The notes beneath the pieces were generated by a model. That model was not told the origin of the DNA. It worked only from the letters and a program-made list of their open reading frames with translations, and ran no database searches. A stretch of DNA of 64,000 bases from Gloeomargarita sp. SRBZ-1_bins_9. Its GTDB lineage: Bacteria > Cyanobacteriota > Cyanobacteriia > Gloeomargaritales > Gloeomargaritaceae. How positions within the stretch are numbered: position 1 is the stretch's first letter; every line of letters starts with the position of its first letter. Shown in pieces: positions 7,539 to 16,723 of this stretch. The stretch spans positions 45,001-109,000 of the forward strand of contig JAUQVX010000005.1 of the NCBI GenBank assembly GCA_039794565.1, written 5' to 3'. Made by a program: the position numbers and the translations under genes.

Positions 7539-7580
7539 TTTATACTTAACGTGGAGTTAACCCTGAGTGGTGCCCGGCCT

Positions 7581-10103
7581 ATGGTCTCTGATCCCCAGCA
7601 ACGTGCGGCGTTAGGCATTCCCCCTTTACCCTTGGATGCGGCCCAGACGGCGGCGCTGTGCGAAAAGTTGCAGTCACCCCAGGCGACGTTGGCGGACAAA
7701 CGGCAGTTGCAGGAACGGGTGCCGCCGGGGGTGGACCCAGCCGCTTATGTCAAGGCGGGATTTTTGGCGGACCTAGCCCAGGGACGGCGCACCAGCCCGG
7801 TGATTTCTCCCCTGGAGGCGGTGCAAATGCTGGGGCAGATGATCGGCGGCTATAACGTCTCGGTGCTGATGGAGTTGCTGCAAAGTGAGGAGGCTACCCT
7901 GGCCCGGGCCGCCCAGGAAGCGTTGTCCCAGATCACCCTGGTCTATGACGCCTTTCACGATGTGTGGGCGCTAGCGGAGCAGGGGAATCTCTTTGCGCAA
8001 GGGGTGATTGACGCCTGGGCGGAGGCCACCTGGTTTACCCGCAGGCCGCCGGTGCCGGAGTGCTTGACCCTGACGGTGTTCAAGGTGCCGGGGGAAATCA
8101 ATACGGATGACCTGTCGCCGGCGGTGCACGCTACCACCCGTGCTGATATTCCCCTGCACGCCCTGACCATGCTGGAAAGCCGCTATCCGGGGGCAATTGA
8201 TGAAATACAGCGGCTGAAGCAGCGGGGGTATCCGGTGGCTTTTGTGGGGGATGTGGTGGGCACGGGGTCGTCCCGCAAGTCAGCCATCAATTCCCTGCTG
8301 TGGCATATCGGGGAGGACATACCGGGGGTGCCCAACAAGCGCCGGGGTGGGGTGATTCTGGGGGGCATTATTGCGCCCATTTTCTTCAATACGGCCCAGG
8401 ATGCGGGGGCCTTGCCCATCGAATGCGATGTGACGCCGCTGCAAACGGGGATGGTGATCCGCTTGTATCCCTACCGGGGAGAAATCCAGGATGAACAGGG
8501 GCAGCTGCTTGCCCGTTTCACCCTGAAGCCGGAAACGCTCTTGGACGAGGTGCGGGCGGGGGGCCGGATTGCCCTGCTCATTGGCCGGGGGTTGACGGAT
8601 AAGACGCGCAGTCGCTTGGGGTTACCGCCCCATCCGGGATTTGTGCGTCCCACGCCGCCGCCGGATAGCGGGAAAGGGTTCACCCTGGCGCAAAAAATGG
8701 TGGGGCGGGCCTGTGGGGTGCCGGGGGTGCGGCCAGGAACTGCCTGTGAACCGGTGATGACCACGGTGGGGTCCCAGGACACAACCGGGCCGATGACGCG
8801 GGATGAGCTAAAGGAGCTGGCCTGCCTGGGCTTTAGCGCCGACTTGGTGCTGCAGAGCTTTTGTCACACGGCAGCCTACCCCAAACCGGCGGATATTCAG
8901 GTGCAGCGGGAGTTGCCGGACTTTTTTGCGTCCCGGGGCGGGGTGGTGCTTAGGCCGGGGGATGGCATTATCCATTCCTGGCTGAACCGGCTGCTGTTGC
9001 CGGATACGGTGGGGACAGGGGCGGACTCCCATACCCGGTTTCCTTTGGGGATTTCCTTTCCGGCGGGGTCGGGGCTGGTGGCTTTTGCGGCGGCAATCGG
9101 CGTGATGCCCATCAATATGCCGGAGTCGGTGCGGGTGCGCTTTCGGGGGTCTTTGCAACCGGGGATCACCCTGCGGGATGTGGTGCACGCCATTCCCTAT
9201 GTGGCCCTACAGCGGGGGTTGCTCACCCTGGGCAAGGAGAACAAGAAAAACATCTTTGCCGGGCGGATTATGGAAATGGAGGGACTGCCGGATTTACAGG
9301 TGGAGCAGGCCTTTGAATTGACAGATGCGACGGCCGAGCGCTCCTGTGCCGCTTGTACGATTCAGTTGAGTGTCAAGACGGTGAGTGAATTTCTGCGCTC
9401 GAATGTGGCGCTGATCAAGCACCTGGTGGCGCGGGGGTATCAAGACAGCCGCACCCTCTTGCGTCGGATGGAAAAGATGCAGGCCTGGCTGGATAACCCC
9501 CAGTTGCTGACGGCCGACCCGGATGCGGAGTATGTGGCAACGATTGACATTGACCTGGATGACATCACGGAACCCTTGGTGGCGGCTCCCAACGACCCGG
9601 ATAACATCAAACGTCTGAGCGAGTGCGCTGGAGACCGGATTGATGAGGTGTTTATCGGCTCCTGCATGACGAATATCGGCCATTACCGGGCGGCGGCCAA
9701 GGTATTAGAGGGGGCCGGGCAGGTGAAGGTGCGGCTGTGGGTGTGTCCCCCAACCCGAATGGATGAACAAGTCCTGCGAGAGGAGGGCTATTACGCCATC
9801 TTTGCGGCCGCCGGAGCACGGATGGAAATGCCGGGCTGTTCTTTGTGCATGGGTAACCAAGCGCGGGTTGCCGACGGGGCCACGGTTTTCTCCACTTCCA
9901 CCCGCAATTTCGACAACCGCATGGGGAAAAACGCCCGGGTCTATCTAGGTTCGGCGGAGCTGGCGGCAGTCTGTGCCCTGCTAGGACGCATTCCCACCCT
10001 TGAGGAATACCGGACCATTGTCACCCAAAAAATTGACCCCTGGGCAGCGGATTTATATCGCTACCTGAACTTCGACCAGATATCAGCGTTTGCTAATAGT
10101 TGA
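7581..10103 (+). CDS. acnB: Aconitate hydratase B (bifunctional aconitase / 2-methylisocitrate dehydratase)
   Basis: An about 840-residue AcnB-type aconitase interconverting citrate and isocitrate in the (branched) TCA pathway. The N-terminal helical HEAT-like domain is followed by the swivel domain and the Fe-S domain. Cysteines for the 4Fe-4S cluster are in SCMTNIGHY and MPGCSLCMGN, as in AcnB of enterobacteria. A GTG at 7551 gives ten extra residues, but it lies only 12 bases from the divergent SDR gene; a TATACT hexamer at 7541-7546 could be the -10 box, which would favour the ATG at 7581. AcnB rather than AcnA is the usual cyanobacterial aconitase. Confidence 0.96.
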   Translation: MVSDPQQRAALGIPPLPLDAAQTAALCEKLQSPQATLADKRQLQERVPPGVDPAAYVKAGFLADLAQGRRTSPVISPLEAVQMLGQMIGGYNVSVLMELLQSEEATLARAAQEALSQITLVYDAFHDVWALAEQGNLFAQGVIDAWAEATWFTRRPPVPECLTLTVFKVPGEINTDDLSPAVHATTRADIPLHALTMLESRYPGAIDEIQRLKQRGYPVAFVGDVVGTGSSRKSAINSLLWHIGEDIPGVPNKRRGGVILGGIIAPIFFNTAQDAGALPIECDVTPLQTGMVIRLYPYRGEIQDEQGQLLARFTLKPETLLDEVRAGGRIALLIGRGLTDKTRSRLGLPPHPGFVRPTPPPDSGKGFTLAQKMVGRACGVPGVRPGTACEPVMTTVGSQDTTGPMTRDELKELACLGFSADLVLQSFCHTAAYPKPADIQVQRELPDFFASRGGVVLRPGDGIIHSWLNRLLLPDTVGTGADSHTRFPLGISFPAGSGLVAFAAAIGVMPINMPESVRVRFRGSLQPGITLRDVVHAIPYVALQRGLLTLGKENKKNIFAGRIMEMEGLPDLQVEQAFELTDATAERSCAACTIQLSVKTVSEFLRSNVALIKHLVARGYQDSRTLLRRMEKMQAWLDNPQLLTADPDAEYVATIDIDLDDITEPLVAAPNDPDNIKRLSECAGDRIDEVFIGSCMTNIGHYRAAAKVLEGAGQVKVRLWVCPPTRMDEQVLREEGYYAIFAAAGARMEMPGCSLCMGNQARVADGATVFSTSTRNFDNRMGKNARVYLGSAELAAVCALLGRIPTLEEYRTIVTQKIDPWAADLYRYLNFDQISAFANS

Positions 10104-10353
10104 GTGTGCAAGCTGGCCGCGTTCTAGATAACACCCACAGGTTAGGATGTGTTCGGCCTCCTGGCCGGAAAACCGGATAATTCACGTTTCCCCTACCGAG
10201 AGTCCTGCAAAAGCCGTGGTAGGGCAAGCTTGGGCGGTGGTTCCGAAGCAGCGGTGGCTCATCTGGTTGGTCGGGAAGTTGGCTCCACACGAAAGTTTAT
10301 AGGGCTGGGTGCCTGAGGGAAGGGTACTACTATATGTCGTTGTGGCTGTCATC
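10104..10353. other. Non-coding spacer after acnB
   Basis: About 250 bases without a credible gene. One small perfect hairpin (CGGCC-TCCT-GGCCG at 10154-10167) follows acnB but has no T-run, so it is not called a terminator. Base composition begins to fall towards AT from about 10300, marking the boundary of the glycan island. Confidence 0.6.
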
Positions 10354-10381
10354 TTGACAGCAGGGAATTAGCCACTCTAAA
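10354..10381 (+). promoter_or_regulatory. Candidate sigma-70 promoter of the glycan/sulfation operon
   Basis: A perfect -35 hexamer TTGACA (10354-10359) is followed after 16 bases by TCTAAA (10376-10381, four of six matches to TATAAT). Transcription would start near 10388, which is downstream of the ATG at 10382 and so favours the ATG at 10412 as the glycosyltransferase start. Confidence 0.5.
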
Positions 10382-10411
10382 ATGAGGCCAGCCCTCGGCC
10401 AATTCACTTTT

Positions 10412-12610
10412 ATGAGAATCTTTATTGTTGCTTCAGAGTTTTATCCATACCCTGGTGGTGTTGCTACCTATCTTTACAATTTCTCCAGGGCCCTAGTAAA
10501 AGCTGGACATAGTGTGGTTATCTTTGTTAGCGAGCGGACAACTCGGGATAGGTTTCTTGGCAAGGTCTACGAGGATTATCGATTGGACGATATTGAAGTA
10601 ATTCGTTTGCCTGGTTGGGTTGATCCTATGTCCCGAATTGACCAAATAGCTAGGAAAGTAATCAGCTACATCAAGAAACACGGTAAACCTGATGTTATTG
10701 AATCCCAAGAGCTTCATGCCATGGCGTACTACCTACTTCAATATAAGCTACAAGGTGAACCTACCCTGCAAGGGGTGCCTATTGTTTTACACCTGCATAC
10801 TGCTATGTACCAAGTTAATCTGCTGAACGGTTACCCTGAGTATAAGTTACCCAATTGGTGGGAGGGCTGTCTGGAGAAGTGGTGCATCTTGGCTGCCGAC
10901 GGCATTGTTGCCCCTAGCCGATTTATCCTAGAAGAGACCCAGACGGAACTGAAAACCGCCCTAAACCAAGCAGCAGTTATACCTTACCCCTTAACCCTGG
11001 ACCTCCAACAATTGATACCGATACCTACTCCTGGGGACGTTGTCTACTTTGGGCGTTATGAAGTGCGCAAGGGGGTGGTAGAACTTCTGAAAGAATGTCA
11101 AAAGCTGTGGGACGCCGGTGTAGATTTTCGCCTAACGCTGATTGGCAACAGCACCCCCTACATCCTAAAAAATTGCGACATGAAAGATTACATTACTAGG
11201 GAATACCGACGGTACATTGATGATGGGCGTTTAGTCTTGGAGCCGGTGATGGGGAAGCCTGATTTGTATCAGCGGGTTGCCCAGGCCTGGTGTGTGGTGA
11301 TTCCATCGTTGTGGGAGAACTTTCCCAACGTCTGCATGGAAGCCATGTTGTTGCAGAAGGTGGTGCTGGCTAGCAGTAATGGTGGCATGAAAGAGATGAT
11401 CCATTACGCCGATAAACCCGCCGGTTTTGTGTTTGATTGGCAGCAAGCTGGTGACTTTGCCGCTAAGCTCCAACACATCTTGAACCTGAGTGAAACAGAG
11501 AACCTATCTATCGGTCAGCAGGCGCGGGAAACGATTTTGCAGATGTGTGGGCCGGAGCGCATTGTTTCGTTGCGGGTGGCCCATTTTGAGCGGGTAATAG
11601 AGTCCAGTCGCGGCCAAGTACGGCGGGTTTATCCCTCGTTGAACTACAAACCCACCGGCAAGATTGACTATCCGCCCCCTGTGGAGCCGCTGGGTGTTCC
11701 TGGCCGTCTGAGTGTGTGCATTCCCTACTACAACATGGGCCGGTATATCCGGGAGACCCTAGACTCGGTATATCAGGTCAACTATAGTGATCTGGAAGTA
11801 CTCATCTGGGACGATGGGAGTACGGAGCTAGAGAGTATCCATGTGCTCACACAAGTGGAGAAGGAGTACCCTGGGTTGACGGTCTATCGGTCGGCCAATC
11901 AGGGTCTAGCGGGGGCACGCAACAGTCTGGCGCAGGTGGCAACGGGTGAGTTCATTGCTTTCTTGGATGCTGATGACCGAGTTCATCCCGACTACTACTC
12001 CAAGGCTGTACAGATACTACAAAGGTATGACAATGTCGGTATTGTCAGCGCGTGGGTGCAACATTTTGGGGACTATCATGGTTGTTGGGTTACCTGGCAG
12101 ACAGAGTTGCCTTACCTTCTTTGTCATAATATGATTGGTTCTGCTGTTGTGGTGAGGAGGGCGGCTTACTTGCAGGTGGGGGGTCAGAAGATGGAGATGA
12201 GTCGCCTTGGTGGCTTTGAGGATTGGGAAAGTTGCATTAATTTCAACAGGAATGGTTGGTTAGGTGTTGTGATACCTGAGTTTTACTTCCTATACAGGAT
12301 TAGGGAAGGCTCGATGTATCGCTCTTTGAGTCTATCAAACCACGCCCTACTAGGACAATGGATCAGTGTATTCCACGACAGTCTCTACCAGCAATACGGC
12401 ACCGAGATTTTTAACCTATGCAATCAAAATGAGATTTCACCTATTCATTGGACTAATCCCACGAAAAGTTACTATCTACCAACAGTAGGATTGATGGCTC
12501 GAAAATTTCTTAGTAAGGTTGCGAATCGCTTAGGTCTATCGCCAAAGTTAAGGTATAATTTAAAGCGACTCATATATTTACTGTCTTACTATAGGGCTAA
12601 ATTACTATGA
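10412..12610 (+). CDS. Two-domain glycosyltransferase (GT4 + GT2)
   Basis: A 732-residue fusion. The N-terminal half (residues about 1-400) is a GT-B, GT4-type transferase: FYPYPGGVATYLYNF at the start and the EX7E signature ENFPNVCME near residue 305. The C-terminal half (about 425-650) is a GT-A, GT2-type transferase: LSVCIPYYNMGRYI, WDDGS and the DxD-type metal motif FLDADD. Such proteins add two sugars to lipid-linked or extracellular polysaccharide. It is the first gene of an operon, with a four-base overlap (ATGA) into the methyltransferase. ATG 10382 would add ten residues unlike the family; I prefer 10412. The gene becomes AT-richer toward its 3' end, unlike the flanking chromosome. 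Confidence 0.9.
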   Translation: MRIFIVASEFYPYPGGVATYLYNFSRALVKAGHSVVIFVSERTTRDRFLGKVYEDYRLDDIEVIRLPGWVDPMSRIDQIARKVISYIKKHGKPDVIESQELHAMAYYLLQYKLQGEPTLQGVPIVLHLHTAMYQVNLLNGYPEYKLPNWWEGCLEKWCILAADGIVAPSRFILEETQTELKTALNQAAVIPYPLTLDLQQLIPIPTPGDVVYFGRYEVRKGVVELLKECQKLWDAGVDFRLTLIGNSTPYILKNCDMKDYITREYRRYIDDGRLVLEPVMGKPDLYQRVAQAWCVVIPSLWENFPNVCMEAMLLQKVVLASSNGGMKEMIHYADKPAGFVFDWQQAGDFAAKLQHILNLSETENLSIGQQARETILQMCGPERIVSLRVAHFERVIESSRGQVRRVYPSLNYKPTGKIDYPPPVEPLGVPGRLSVCIPYYNMGRYIRETLDSVYQVNYSDLEVLIWDDGSTELESIHVLTQVEKEYPGLTVYRSANQGLAGARNSLAQVATGEFIAFLDADDRVHPDYYSKAVQILQRYDNVGIVSAWVQHFGDYHGCWVTWQTELPYLLCHNMIGSAVVVRRAAYLQVGGQKMEMSRLGGFEDWESCINFNRNGWLGVVIPEFYFLYRIREGSMYRSLSLSNHALLGQWISVFHDSLYQQYGTEIFNLCNQNEISPIHWTNPTKSYYLPTVGLMARKFLSKVANRLGLSPKLRYNLKRLIYLLSYYRAKLL

Positions 12611-13212
12611 ATACACACGATCCTCGGGATAGCTACATAGCTCAAGTTGTGCAAGGTCGCTCCTTTCTCGAAGTGGGTGGCTTGTGGGGAGGAGTTAACG
12701 AAAAAGTATCGGTTGCCTATAGGTTCGGCGCCAGGCGGCTGGCAATTGTAGATGTGGCTAAACCTGAAAATCAATGGTGGGAATTTTTTAGGCAGAGAAT
12801 GACCCAGATGGATATTAAAAACTATGATGCTTATTATGAAGTTACTGATGAACTGATTAAGCTTAAGAAGCCTTACTTTGTAGTATCCTACGATTTCGAA
12901 TTTGAAAGGTTTCCGGAGAAGGTGGACTTGGCAATTGCACACTCATTATTTACACACTTACCACCAAGACTAATTCACAAATGCCTTAAAAATTTTCTAG
13001 TTAAAGCCAAGGGCCAAACGATACTTTTTGCAACATTTTTTGAAACTAATAAAACTGTGAAGAATCCACCTAAGCCAGGCGACCACAAGAGCTTTCTCTA
13101 CACTAGAGAAGAAATGGTTTATTTTGGCGAAGCTAATGGTTACTCATCACAGTATATTGGTCAGTGGGGGCATCCCCGTGGCCAGGTCATGGTGGCCTAT
13201 AGCCCAAGATAA
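12607..13212 (+). CDS. Class I SAM-dependent methyltransferase-like protein
   Basis: A 201-residue protein. The segment FLEVGGLWGG (residues about 19-28) matches motif I of Rossmann-type methyltransferases in position but is not the canonical DxGxGxG; an acidic residue follows in LAIVDVAKPE, and VDLAIAHSLFTHLPP (about 102-116) matches the motif IV/post-motif segment common in polysaccharide-locus methyltransferases. It probably O-methylates a sugar or polymer end; the substrate is unknown. It overlaps the glycosyltransferase stop by four bases. Composition is strongly AT-rich compared with the flanks, as expected of a transferred gene. Confidence 0.72.
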   Translation: MNTHDPRDSYIAQVVQGRSFLEVGGLWGGVNEKVSVAYRFGARRLAIVDVAKPENQWWEFFRQRMTQMDIKNYDAYYEVTDELIKLKKPYFVVSYDFEFERFPEKVDLAIAHSLFTHLPPRLIHKCLKNFLVKAKGQTILFATFFETNKTVKNPPKPGDHKSFLYTREEMVYFGEANGYSSQYIGQWGHPRGQVMVAYSPR

Positions 13213-13231
13213 TTGTGGAGGTTTAACTTTT

Positions 13232-13765
13232 ATGAGCTTTACTATCTGGCTAACTGGCTTACCTGGCTCTGGTAAAACCACAATTGCAACCGCATTGGGA
13301 GACTTTCTTCACCAGAATGAACTAACCTATGAAATCTTAGACGGAGATATTCTTAGGAAGACCCTTTGTAGTGATTTAGGATATTCACCCGAAGATAGAC
13401 AAAAAAACGCTATTCGGGTAGCCTATGTGTGCCAGATCCTGAACAAGAACAAAATCATATCAGTAGTATCTCTGATAACCCCATATAACCAGTCTAGAAA
13501 AAAGGTCAAGTCTATTGTGCCAAATTTAGTCGAGGTTTATGTTTTCTGTCCAATTGAAGTATTAATAAAACGTGATCCGAAAGGGCTCTATAAAAAGGCA
13601 CTAGAAGGAGAAATTAAGGACTTCACAGGTATCTCTGCGCCCTATGAAATTCCAGAATCACCAGATGTTATAGTTCAGACTGACCGAATGTCAGTTCATG
13701 AGTGCGTGAAATACATAATAGATGCTGCTACTGACAAGGGATTTCTTGGTAAAATATTTCCTTGA
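13232..13765 (+). CDS. cysC: Adenylyl-sulfate (APS) kinase
   Basis: A 177-residue kinase making PAPS from APS and ATP. The P-loop GLPGSGKTT is at residues 9-17, then LDGDILRKTLCSDLGYSPED (APS-binding region; the family norm is DGDNxR, so the Asn is replaced by Ile here), and FTGISAPYEIPESP near the end (family norm FTGIDSPYE). It lacks the N-terminal extension of assimilatory enzymes. The ATG at 13232 follows a TGGAGG site; an upstream in-frame extension to 13124 overlaps the methyltransferase and is rejected. Lying directly before a sulfotransferase, it most likely supplies PAPS for glycan sulfation rather than for cysteine synthesis. Confidence 0.93.
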   Translation: MSFTIWLTGLPGSGKTTIATALGDFLHQNELTYEILDGDILRKTLCSDLGYSPEDRQKNAIRVAYVCQILNKNKIISVVSLITPYNQSRKKVKSIVPNLVEVYVFCPIEVLIKRDPKGLYKKALEGEIKDFTGISAPYEIPESPDVIVQTDRMSVHECVKYIIDAATDKGFLGKIFP

Positions 13766-13782
13766 GTTATATATGGACTGGT

Positions 13783-14817
13783 ATGTGTGAGGCCACCTGC
13801 TTCATCATTGCTGGAATGCACAGGTCAGGGACATCCTATCTGGCTGCCCTGCTTCAGAGTGCGGGGGTTCACATTGGAGCTAAACTTCTTAAACCTGATC
13901 GGGGTAATCCAAGGGGCTATTTTGAGAATACAGAATTTTTGGAATTTCATATGACTATTTTGGAAAGCTTGGGTCTGAACAATGGTGGGCATATTGAACC
14001 CAGCATTCGGTTTATTCGTGTCCCTGAACAATTCGTTACTGAAGCAAGGGAGTTGATTAAAAAGAATCAAGTGGCACCATATTGGGGCTGGAAAGACCCT
14101 AGAACCACTTTATTCTTAGATTTTTGGCATAGTTTGCTACCCGATGCATTTTTTATCTTTACCTATCGCAGGCCTTGGGAAGTTGTAGATTCATTATTTC
14201 GGCGTGGTGATCATCTATTCCTGAAGAATCCAAAACTTGCACTGCAATCTTGGATGAGTTCCAATATGAGAATATTGAGCTTTTATCTGAGAAATAGTGA
14301 AAAGTGTCTTCTTTTAAATGTGGAAACTTTCTACAGAAATCCTGATTTAGTAGTTGAATATTGTAAGCAAAAGTTTAATATTCGGCTTAATCCTGTTAAC
14401 AGTAATGTAAGGGATTTCCATCTTCTGAAGCGAATAGAATCAACCCACAGAATCGAACTTCTCAGAGAATTTTTTCCCGAATGCATTAGCCTGTATGAAG
14501 AGTTAAACAGACTATCTGGATTTAGTGATGATAATTTCAAAATTTACCAAGACTTCCCAAAAATCAAAACTTTAGATTGGATTCTACAAGACTGGCAGCT
14601 CACTCGTCACTTAGAAAGCCAGCTTACTCAAGCTACTCAACAATTGCAAGCAGCGAAACATGAGTTAGACATCACAAAAGCCGAGCTTGTATGGTTTAAA
14701 AAAGAGTTAGAGCGCATCCACAACAGCCGCTTCTGGAAGGTCTGGAAAGTGCTGCGGCGAGTTAAGAAGTTAGTGACTGGCCTCTTAAAGCTTAAAACTC
14801 ACGACGGGCAAAAATAA
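13783..14817 (+). CDS. PAPS-dependent sulfotransferase with C-terminal coiled coil
   Basis: About 344 residues. The phosphosulfate-binding loop IAGMHRSGTSYLAALL is near the N-terminus, and a segment YRRPWEVVDSLFRRG matches the 3'-phosphate-binding region of carbohydrate sulfotransferases. Residues about 275-330 form a predicted coiled coil (SQLTQATQQLQAAKHELD and on), followed by a basic tail (FWKVWKVLRRVKK) that could bind membrane or partner. ATG 13783 is preferred; a TTG at 13762 overlapping the cysC stop (TTGA) is possible. With cysC it forms a self-contained sulfation module acting on the product of the upstream glycosyltransferase. The 3' end overlaps the convergent permease by 26 bases. 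Confidence 0.88.
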   Translation: MCEATCFIIAGMHRSGTSYLAALLQSAGVHIGAKLLKPDRGNPRGYFENTEFLEFHMTILESLGLNNGGHIEPSIRFIRVPEQFVTEARELIKKNQVAPYWGWKDPRTTLFLDFWHSLLPDAFFIFTYRRPWEVVDSLFRRGDHLFLKNPKLALQSWMSSNMRILSFYLRNSEKCLLLNVETFYRNPDLVVEYCKQKFNIRLNPVNSNVRDFHLLKRIESTHRIELLREFFPECISLYEELNRLSGFSDDNFKIYQDFPKIKTLDWILQDWQLTRHLESQLTQATQQLQAAKHELDITKAELVWFKKELERIHNSRFWKVWKVLRRVKKLVTGLLKLKTHDGQK

Positions 14818-15565
14818 GTACTGTCGCTGAGAGGAGGAAAATAGTGTATAGGATGCCGTACAAAACGCTTGACCAGAGGATGCCGGTATCGGGAAGCAAA
14901 CCGTAAACGGCTGTGTTTTTCCAATCCAGACGGGAAAGGTCAGGAACAACAAGAAATAACCCCTTTAATACCTGCAAAAGTTGGGGGTTGCGAATTAAGC
15001 GCCCCAGGGTGATCACATCGGAACTGAGGTGGCCGATGAAAAAGGTGGAGACGGTCAAAAAGGTCGCAATTAAAGGACTGGTGAAAACGCTAAACAACAG
15101 GGCTGCTGCTGTCAGAAGGGCAAACTCTAGCATCATGAAACCAATGGCAATAAGGATGGCTGTAAGGGGGTAGCTGATGCGCAAGAGACTGAGATAGCCA
15201 AAATACACCACTGACATCAACAGCAATAACACAACTAGGGCACCGACTAATCCTAAATGCTTGCCCACTACCAGTTCTAGTCGGCTCATGGGCTTAGCGA
15301 TCAAGATAAAAATAGTGCGCTTTTCCACTTCGCGAGCAAGAAGATTAGGAGTGGTGAAGACCACAATCACCAACCCAAAAATGAGCATGAGTGCTAGGCC
15401 AAAATCGGGAATGATTTTATTTTCAGTTGCCGCTGCCACTTCGGTAATAAGCGCTCCCCCGGCCACCAAGAAAATGGCATAAAGACCCGCTAGATACAAT
15501 AAACGCTCCCGCAGTAACTCCAGAAAAGTGTGCTTGGCAATGGCCCAAATCCGTACAGCGTTCAT
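14792..15565 (-). CDS. ABC-2-type transporter permease
   Basis: A 257-residue integral membrane protein with six likely helices and the cytoplasmic segment LLAREVEKRTIFILIAKPMS between helices 2 and 3, typical of ABC-2 permeases in which the element couples to the ATPase. No ATPase gene is adjacent, so its partner must be encoded elsewhere. It probably exports a lipid, polysaccharide or drug. It is followed upstream (7 bases) by the thioredoxin-like secreted protein in the same direction, suggesting a two-gene operon. Composition is intermediate between the island and the core. Confidence 0.82.
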   Translation of the reverse strand: MNAVRIWAIAKHTFLELLRERLLYLAGLYAIFLVAGGALITEVAAATENKIIPDFGLALMLIFGLVIVVFTTPNLLAREVEKRTIFILIAKPMSRLELVVGKHLGLVGALVVLLLLMSVVYFGYLSLLRISYPLTAILIAIGFMMLEFALLTAAALLFSVFTSPLIATFLTVSTFFIGHLSSDVITLGRLIRNPQLLQVLKGLFLVVPDLSRLDWKNTAVYGLLPDTGILWSSVLYGILYTIFLLSATVLIFARREF

Positions 15566-15572
15566 GACCGGT

Positions 15573-16130
15573 TCACGAAGGGGCTAACTCCACATTCACT
15601 TCGTTGAACTGGCGAGGGGTTACAGGGACTGGCTGACGCGGCGGAATCCCAAACCAGTTAGCTAATACCGCATCAATTCGATTGAAAGAAACCTGACCCA
15701 CTTCATCCAATAGCACGTGATTTTCCCCATCCTTACCAGCCAGAATGACAACCTGGGGAACACGACCGCGATAGTACGTGATGGGGTTGGTAGAGTCGGC
15801 TTGTTCAGTCGGTAATAGACTGTCTACGGTGATGGGGATAATGTCAATGGCTCGCCCGTAAAATCGCTGCACCTGTGAGACAGTACTGGCAAACATTTTG
15901 CAATCACGGCTGTCGTCCAGGTAATAAACCAGCATGGCGGGACGCTCGGGGTGGGCTAGCGCTTCCTTTAACGTCACTCGCGGCGGTACCAACGATCCAT
16001 TCCCTGCATAGAGGGCAAAGATATTGCCGTCAAAACGGTCGTCCTGCAATCCCGCCCCCGCAGGCTGCACCCACCCGAACACAATCAATAGGCACACCAT
16101 CAACCCATTGAGGATGAAGCGTCTCACCAT
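15573..16130 (-). CDS. Thioredoxin-like lumenal protein, candidate thylakoid PSI accumulation factor
   Basis: A 185-residue exported protein with a signal peptide (MVRRFILNGLMVCLLIVFGW, cleavage near AGA). The mature part has a thioredoxin-like order: MLVYYLDDSRDCKMFA (residues about 66-81, Cys77 in place of the WCxxC site), then the cis-Pro strand RVPQVVILAG. The sequence around DDRFDGNIFALYAGNGSLVPPRV is a strongly conserved cyanobacterial signature that I associate with proteins annotated as thylakoid membrane photosystem I accumulation factors; that name is from memory and not proven here. Only one active-site cysteine remains, so classical disulfide exchange is unlikely. Confidence 0.65.
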   Translation of the reverse strand: MVRRFILNGLMVCLLIVFGWVQPAGAGLQDDRFDGNIFALYAGNGSLVPPRVTLKEALAHPERPAMLVYYLDDSRDCKMFASTVSQVQRFYGRAIDIIPITVDSLLPTEQADSTNPITYYRGRVPQVVILAGKDGENHVLLDEVGQVSFNRIDAVLANWFGIPPRQPVPVTPRQFNEVNVELAPS

Positions 16131-16174
16131 CGGCAGACAAACTCGCCTCTACTGTTATACAGCAAAAAACGGCT

Positions 16175-16207
16175 AAAAAAACGGGCTACCCCCACAGGAT
16201 AACCCGC
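16175..16207 (-). terminator. Rho-independent terminator downstream of dps
   Basis: On the minus strand an eight-pair stem (GCGGGTTA pairing with TAGCCCGT, two G-T wobbles) with an 11-base loop is followed directly by six T residues (plus-strand A-run 16175-16180). It begins 15 bases after the dps stop codon and ends before the next minus-strand gene. Confidence 0.7.
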
Positions 16208-16222
16208 TACCTAAACTTACCT

Positions 16223-16723
16223 TCAACCATGCAAATGGGCTTCCAGGAACCACAACCGCTTGTCCACCGTACGGGAAATTTCGGTGAACAAATCAGCCGT
16301 GTCGGCATCACCTAAATCCGCCGTCTGGTCAATCGCCTGCCGCACGAATTTGCCGTACTGGGCGTAGCGGTCGGCCAGCGCCACCAGGTGGTCTTTGCCA
16401 TTTACCGCATCGGCCGGATACTCGGGCAACTGGGACGCCTGGGCCACCATGCGCACGGTTCCTTGGGCCACCCCCGCCAAAGCCGTCACCCGCTCTGCCA
16501 AGTCATCCACGTACTCCAGGAGCTCGCCGGCCATTTCGTCAAATAGTTCGTGCAGGGCGTAAAAGTCCGAACCCTTGACGTTCCAGTGGGCCTGCTTGGT
16601 CTGGGTGTACAAATCTAGGGTGTTGGCCAGGGCTTGGTTCAATATGGCAATCACCTGACTGCGGACTTCGGCACTCAAATCCAAACGGGTTGGATATAAG
16701 GTTGATTTGACTTGCGTAGGCAT
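16223..16723 (-). CDS. dps: Dps-family ferritin-like DNA-protection protein
   Basis: A 166-residue four-helix Dps monomer. Dps dodecamers oxidise Fe(II) with peroxide, store iron and bind DNA. The intersubunit ferroxidase ligands are recognisable: His in KQAHWNVKG, and Asp/Glu in LHELFDEMAGELLEYVDDLAER. The C-terminal helix ends KRLWFLEAHLHG, usual for the family. A strong AGGAGG site (16731-16736) precedes the ATG at 16723. The gene is followed by its own terminator. Upstream in the same direction lies sulfiredoxin, so the two form a peroxide-defence pair. Confidence 0.95.
   Translation of the reverse strand: MPTQVKSTLYPTRLDLSAEVRSQVIAILNQALANTLDLYTQTKQAHWNVKGSDFYALHELFDEMAGELLEYVDDLAERVTALAGVAQGTVRMVAQASQLPEYPADAVNGKDHLVALADRYAQYGKFVRQAIDQTADLGDADTADLFTEISRTVDKRLWFLEAHLHG

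Follow-up and report, generated by a model that had tools for sequence, protein, structure and literature searches.

Gene content and composition of the locus

The DNA analyzed here, referred to below as the window, is a stretch of 64,000 nucleotides from a Gloeomargarita genome (contig C5, bases 45,001-109,000, in an assembly of 2.22 Mb in 21 contigs). Within it, a block of four open reading frames (ORFs) on the forward strand lies between the aconitase gene acnB and a conserved gene for an ATP-binding cassette (ABC) type 2 permease on the opposite strand, and is predicted to encode, in order, a GT4-GT2 glycosyltransferase, a methyltransferase, an adenosine 5'-phosphosulfate (APS) kinase (CysC) and a sulfotransferase (Table 1). 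The source genome was compared with six other genomes of the same genus and with one genome of the sister genus, G007; statements of absence refer throughout to profile searches, the genomes searched being 83-99% complete. As the initial annotation had observed, the block is rich in A+T: positions 10382-14817 have a G+C content of 44.2%, against 61.1% for the remainder, and no 4.4-kb segment of the window has a lower value. The shift is graded, with a third-position G+C (GC3) of 0.45-0.56 in the glycosyltransferase gene, 0.44 over codons 1-75 of the methyltransferase gene and 0.34-0.39 in the rest of that gene, cysC and the sulfotransferase gene, whereas 47 other ORFs average 0.715 (sd 0.058). 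The last three of these segments, at 39-40% G+C, also depart most strongly in codon use.

The genes had been described as tightly packed through ATGA-type overlaps. The four ORFs are real and share a strand, but the ATGA overlap occurs only between the glycosyltransferase and methyltransferase genes; a 19-bp gap separates the latter from cysC, and cysC either shares a TTGA with the sulfotransferase gene or is followed by it after 17 bp. The glycosyltransferase frame is open from an ATG at 10382, and the start at ATG 10412 (MRIFIVASEFYPYPGG) agrees with those of its paralogues. No tRNA gene was found near the block, no direct or inverted repeats of at least 16 bp were found in 9900-16300, and no mobility gene was recognized among the ORFs around that interval by the ORF list and Pfam; borders marked by repeats or a tRNA were thus rejected. 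A plasmid or phage origin was set aside as well, as the best plasmid and phage matches to the sulfotransferase span less than half of the protein at ~31-36% identity, and a role in anti-phage defense was rejected on zero PADLOC matches for the four proteins.

Table 1. Coordinates of the features discussed, as positions in the window.
Feature	Position	Strand	Evidence
GT4-GT2 two-domain glycosyltransferase	10412..12610	+	PF13439/PF00534 at residues 24-382, PF00535 at 444-575; G001 orthologue
Stretch common to the glycosyltransferase gene and its paralogue; possible misassembly or recombination point	10949..11245	+	Alignments to the end of C7 and the start of C17
Methyltransferase gene, 5' part, native type, with S-adenosylmethionine motif I FLEVGG	12607..12831	+	74% identity to G001 methyltransferase, residues 5-76
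Methyltransferase gene, 3' part, different methyltransferase family, 39.6% G+C	12832..13212	+	Homology to the full-length methyltransferases L221/L222 starts at residues 75-77
APS kinase (CysC), 177 aa	13232..13765	+	PF01583, TIGR00455, solved homologues 2yvu/8a8h/7yq0
Sulfotransferase of PAPS-dependent type with C-terminal helical tail; alternative start TTG 13762	13783..14817	+	PF13469, motifs, fold
Right border: conserved ABC-2 permease gene	14792..15565	-	Synteny with TlpA-like and Dps genes in four genus-mates
Left neighbor as assembled: acnB	7551..10103	+	Not beside the ABC permease gene in genus-mates

The APS kinase and the sulfotransferase

The CysC protein matches the APS_kinase family (E 5e-53; 179.5 bits against a cut-off of 21.1) and lies above the cut-off of the apsK equivalog-domain model (202.4 against 138.7 bits). 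Alignments to the solved homologues reveal the Walker A motif GLPGSGKTT, the DGD motif and the RDPKGLYKKA and FTGI segments, and the closest relatives of solved structure, at 1e-44, are APS kinases. CysC-like kinases of glycan loci can have other substrates, as in Campylobacter, where such a kinase takes part in the synthesis of capsule phosphoramidate. That the enzyme considered here likewise acts on a nucleotide other than APS is nevertheless very improbable in light of these profile and structural matches, its pairing with a sulfotransferase of the type that uses 3'-phosphoadenosine 5'-phosphosulfate (PAPS), and a complement of four genes with none for phosphoramidate synthesis. The initial annotation regarded the protein as a short and unusual variant carrying DGDI in place of DGDN. 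Its length, however, falls within the range of solved stand-alone APS kinases (175-192 aa), and the residue that follows DGD may be N, E, I, V, W, G, T, A or L among ~90 CysC sequences; DGDI is also present in the housekeeping CysC of five cyanobacteria (G009, G012, G014, G015 and G019). The notion of a special APS-kinase variant was therefore rejected, the residue being a common one at a freely variable position.

What sets this CysC apart is its distribution. It is the sole PF01583 match in the source genome; the six genus-mates have none, and the sister-genus genome has one. The suggestion of a local PAPS supply is supported by this distribution, and more strongly than the sequence by itself could show. 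It is ~41-52% identical to cyanobacterial and archaeal homologues and shares their APS-kinase motifs, but unlike the usual CysC it is the only copy in its genome and lies in a glycan locus instead of a sulfate-assimilation setting. In phylogenies it stands on a long branch, apart from the CysC group common in cyanobacteria. One tree joins it to the CysC of a Rivularia genome, G327 (98/92), near archaeal enzymes, while a wider tree leaves it as an unresolved long branch, and the identification of a donor by phylogeny was dropped for this reason.

The neighboring sulfotransferase matches Sulfotransfer_3 (PF13469; E 7e-8, 33.4 bits against a cut-off of 27). It is the only PF13469 match in the source genome, where the other main family, PF00685, has zero matches; neither family was matched in the six genus-mates, and the sister-genus genome has nine PF13469 matches. 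Both elements expected for PAPS binding are present, namely the 5' phosphosulfate loop (HRSGTS) and the 3' phosphate motif (YRxPW..xDS), and the MHRSG, GWKxPR and YRxPW motifs are invariant or nearly so in 18 homologues. The closest homologues of the enzyme are 42-46% identical to it. A structural model with a predicted local distance difference test (pLDDT) score of 84 finds its best matches in the PDB among PAPS sulfotransferases, including tyrosylprotein, CurM and heparan-sulfate enzymes, at a probability of 1.00. The coiled-coil tail noted in the initial annotation is recovered as a predicted C-terminal helical tail (residues 264-341) resembling the tails of several homologues; our guess is that it would dock the enzyme to the membrane or to partner enzymes.

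A sample of 386 genomes of the phylum was searched. A strong sulfotransferase homologue (E about 1e-40 or better) occurs in 36 other cyanobacterial genomes, and a CysC match is present somewhere in 36/36 when the two tables are crossed by hand. CysC lies near the sulfotransferase in 2 of the 36 genomes, both times together with genes for a Wzm and Wzt exporter. A peptide-pattern scan of contigs yielded at least 80 loci, which form a biased sample. The gene order of the pair in G327 is Wzm-Wzt-CysC-sulfotransferase, with 86 bp separating the CysC and sulfotransferase matches, and in G094 it is CysC-Wzm-Wzt-sulfotransferase, this CysC being the only match of its genome. Another CysC adjoins a more distant sulfotransferase-like gene in G211 (L258:2103-3568). 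Cyanobacterial sulfotransferases occur mostly in extracellular polysaccharide clusters of the Wzx/Wzy or ABC type (PMC8205485). Based on this survey and on the homologues in Wzm/Wzt clusters, a surface glycan is the likeliest acceptor.

Compared to the Sulfotransfer_3 proteins of such polysaccharide clusters (PMC8205485), the enzyme described here shares the PAPS motifs and has homologues in ABC-type export clusters, but it occurs in a genus otherwise devoid of these families and has no export genes alongside. The xss cluster for synechan in Synechocystis 6803 likewise combines glycosyltransferases and sulfotransferases, yielding a sulfated exopolysaccharide (PMC8205485). It is, however, large (xssA-xssS) and also encodes Wzx/Wzy and regulators, and the main text of that study names no APS kinase, whereas the present locus comprises four genes with a single glycosyltransferase and an APS kinase in addition. 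A precedent for an APS kinase encoded together with sulfotransferases in a cyanobacterial biosynthetic locus is provided by the sxt clusters (sxtO and sxtN; PMC2679770), though their product is a small alkaloid and the neighbors here are glycosyltransferases.

Composite structure of the glycosyltransferase and methyltransferase genes

The first gene had been read as a GT4-GT2 fusion, and Pfam matches to both domains agree. Its homologues place it in a GT4-GT2 family that is native to the genus and has a low G+C content of its own; the orthologue in genus-mate G001 (L120:3173-5434) lies near prfC and has 48% G+C. The source genome has paralogues at the end of contig C7 (L007) and the start of contig C17 (L006), both contigs breaking inside the gene. 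The last 125 bp of C7 are identical to window positions 10949-11073 and the first 121 bp of C17 to 11125-11245, within a repeat of ~297 bp in total; the 51 bp between the two identical stretches are present in neither contig. Upstream of the repeat it is C7 that better resembles the G001 glycosyltransferase (75% identity versus 58% for the window), and downstream it is the window (73% versus 60% for C17). The gene in the window thus combines two paralogues, one contributing the N-terminal part and another the C-terminal part. This may reflect recombination in the repeat or a wrong exit by the assembler, and the link to acnB may accordingly be a misassembly or a recent recombination.

Gene order in G001 is prfC-glycosyltransferase-methyltransferase, and in G004 prfC, an ORF, a glycosyltransferase and the ABC permease stand in one row, with the orientations of prfC, the ORF and the permease fitting the proposed join; in the source genome prfC is close to the end of C7. 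Because of this synteny in G001 and G004, the prfC locus seems a likelier home than acnB for the right-hand half of the glycosyltransferase gene, and the four genes most probably lie between prfC and the ABC-2 permease gene. The interval beside this conserved permease gene (and beside prfC in G004) differs in gene content from one genus-mate to the next (L073, L074, L075, L076, L120) and, with glycosyltransferases in some of them, is a variable glycan locus. Downstream of prfC in G004 there is also a CRISPR-like array (L075:16170-19200) with ~36 copies of a ~37-base repeat (GTTTCAATCCTCATTCACTCCTAAGAATGAATGCAAT).

The methyltransferase gene is composite in a different way. Its native-type part resembles the G001 methyltransferase that adjoins the glycosyltransferase near prfC, and the remainder does not align with that G001 protein and instead matches another methyltransferase family. 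The G+C content drops from 46% to 40% at the join, across which the reading frame stays open. No repeats able to cause a misjoin at this junction were found in the source genome, which makes misassembly here unlikely, and the most natural view of the join at ~12,830 is that the foreign DNA starts there. The protein is accordingly a hybrid of a native N-terminal portion of ~75 residues and a foreign C-terminal one. No Pfam or NCBIfam model matched the product of 12607-13212, though L221, a full-length protein related to its 3' part, exceeds the cut-off of Methyltransf_11/12/25 and the G001 relative of its 5' part matches methyltransferase models weakly; an AlphaFold2 model built from 5 rows has a pLDDT of 52 and is too poor for use. 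The enzyme may add methyl groups to the same glycan, or the hybrid may have no function. The missing family match and the poor model, together with the high variability of the locus across the genus, are compatible with a decaying recombinant remnant in which the methyltransferase is dead, the product of the locus is useless, and CysC and the sulfotransferase are passengers. We regard this as quite unlikely, since CysC and the sulfotransferase are intact and full-length and have kept their signature motifs, and the methyltransferase frame is open over its junction.

These observations bear on the proposal of horizontal transfer made in the initial annotation. The foreign composition and the absence of CysC and the sulfotransferase from six genus-mates agree with it, but the glycosyltransferase and the 5' part of the methyltransferase gene stem from the genus itself; on the best reading the acquired part comprises the 3' end of the methyltransferase gene, the APS kinase and the sulfotransferase. 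A search for relatives that carry the same four genes in host-like composition found none. The contiguity of the four genes, their common strand, low G+C content and tight spacing would also fit a four-gene island acquired as one unit and alone making a new sulfated glycan. Such a history is unlikely, however, given the native glycosyltransferase and methyltransferase N-terminal part, the chimeric methyltransferase and the lack of export or polymerase genes among the four. Pfam identified no Wzx/Wzy, Wzm/Wzt or priming enzyme among them, and there is no complete set for polymer synthesis and export like that of synechan, which does not support the view of a self-contained pathway; the pathway would depend on genes elsewhere.

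Proposed sulfation in a genus without other APS kinases

ATP sulfurylase is present in the source genome and in the five genus-mates searched for it, and these five (G001-G005) keep it together with CysH in the absence of any APS kinase. In the CysH of the genus, the CC and CxxC cysteines to which an iron-sulfur (FeS) cluster binds are missing and only ECGIH is kept (L066 and relatives), a form usually called PAPS reductase. This could mean that the APS kinase mainly feeds PAPS to CysH in sulfate assimilation and that the sulfotransferase is a bystander. We consider this unlikely, as the five genus-mates have both other enzymes without the kinase, the FeS-free enzyme APR-B reduces APS (PMC2275785), and CysC adjoins the sulfotransferase here as its homologues stand beside sulfotransferases in G327 and G094. 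The existence of APR-B makes life without PAPS plausible, and the gene complement of the five genus-mates suggests, by analogy, an APR-B-like, APS-dependent assimilation of sulfate. In a published account of Thermostichales and Gloeomargaritales metagenome-assembled genomes, cysC is listed among the assimilatory genes of the two orders as one group, with no genomes singled out (PMC11304991); our literature search on APS kinase in hot-spring Synechococcus found no paper combining all of these topics.

We favor the explanation, with a probability of about 0.6, that the locus is a variable surface-glycan locus into which a two-gene PAPS module has restored sulfation in a PAPS-lacking lineage, acting on a surface glycan. 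Recombination would have exchanged the 3' end of a native glycosyltransferase/methyltransferase unit for foreign DNA carrying another methyltransferase 3' end, CysC and the sulfotransferase. The organism's own ATP sulfurylase would supply APS, which the acquired kinase would phosphorylate to PAPS, a compound apparently not made by the rest of the genus. The acceptor would be a glycan or glycolipid under construction at the inner membrane by the co-encoded glycosyltransferase together with further enzymes, and the acquired sulfotransferase would move the sulfuryl group of PAPS onto one of its hydroxyls; export would presumably be provided from outside the block. The sulfated product and the activity of the methyltransferase are both inferred.

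Several points weigh against this explanation. The model of the sulfotransferase has low TM-scores to known sulfotransferases (0.33-0.45 by query length), which do not resolve its substrate, and the acceptor could instead be a small molecule, a lipid or a protein. The long branch of CysC leaves a joint transfer of the pair unproven. The link between CysC and sulfotransferases also has an exception, as one genome, G017, has six sulfotransferase matches and zero CysC matches; with an assembly that is fragmented and 93% complete, the kinase gene may have been lost in assembly, or else G017 has an unusual source of PAPS.

CysC and the sulfotransferase belong to known families, and the history of gain after loss is the interesting part. 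Somewhat short of an even chance, and thus tentatively, we propose that the genus dropped APS kinase and both main sulfotransferase families, and presumably PAPS with them, and that one lineage regained sulfation through a portable, interdependent CysC-sulfotransferase pair spliced into a variable glycan locus. Any cloning of the locus should proceed with caution, given two recombinant genes out of four and a left border that may have been assembled wrongly. In summary, a modification chemistry lost by the genus has apparently been regained through two genes. With the rest of the genus apparently lacking PAPS, this organism would offer a natural before-and-after comparison of what sulfated surface glycans do in cyanobacteria and, if the regained-sulfation reading is true, its PAPS-free background would make it a clean natural test of the role that glycan sulfation plays for the cell.

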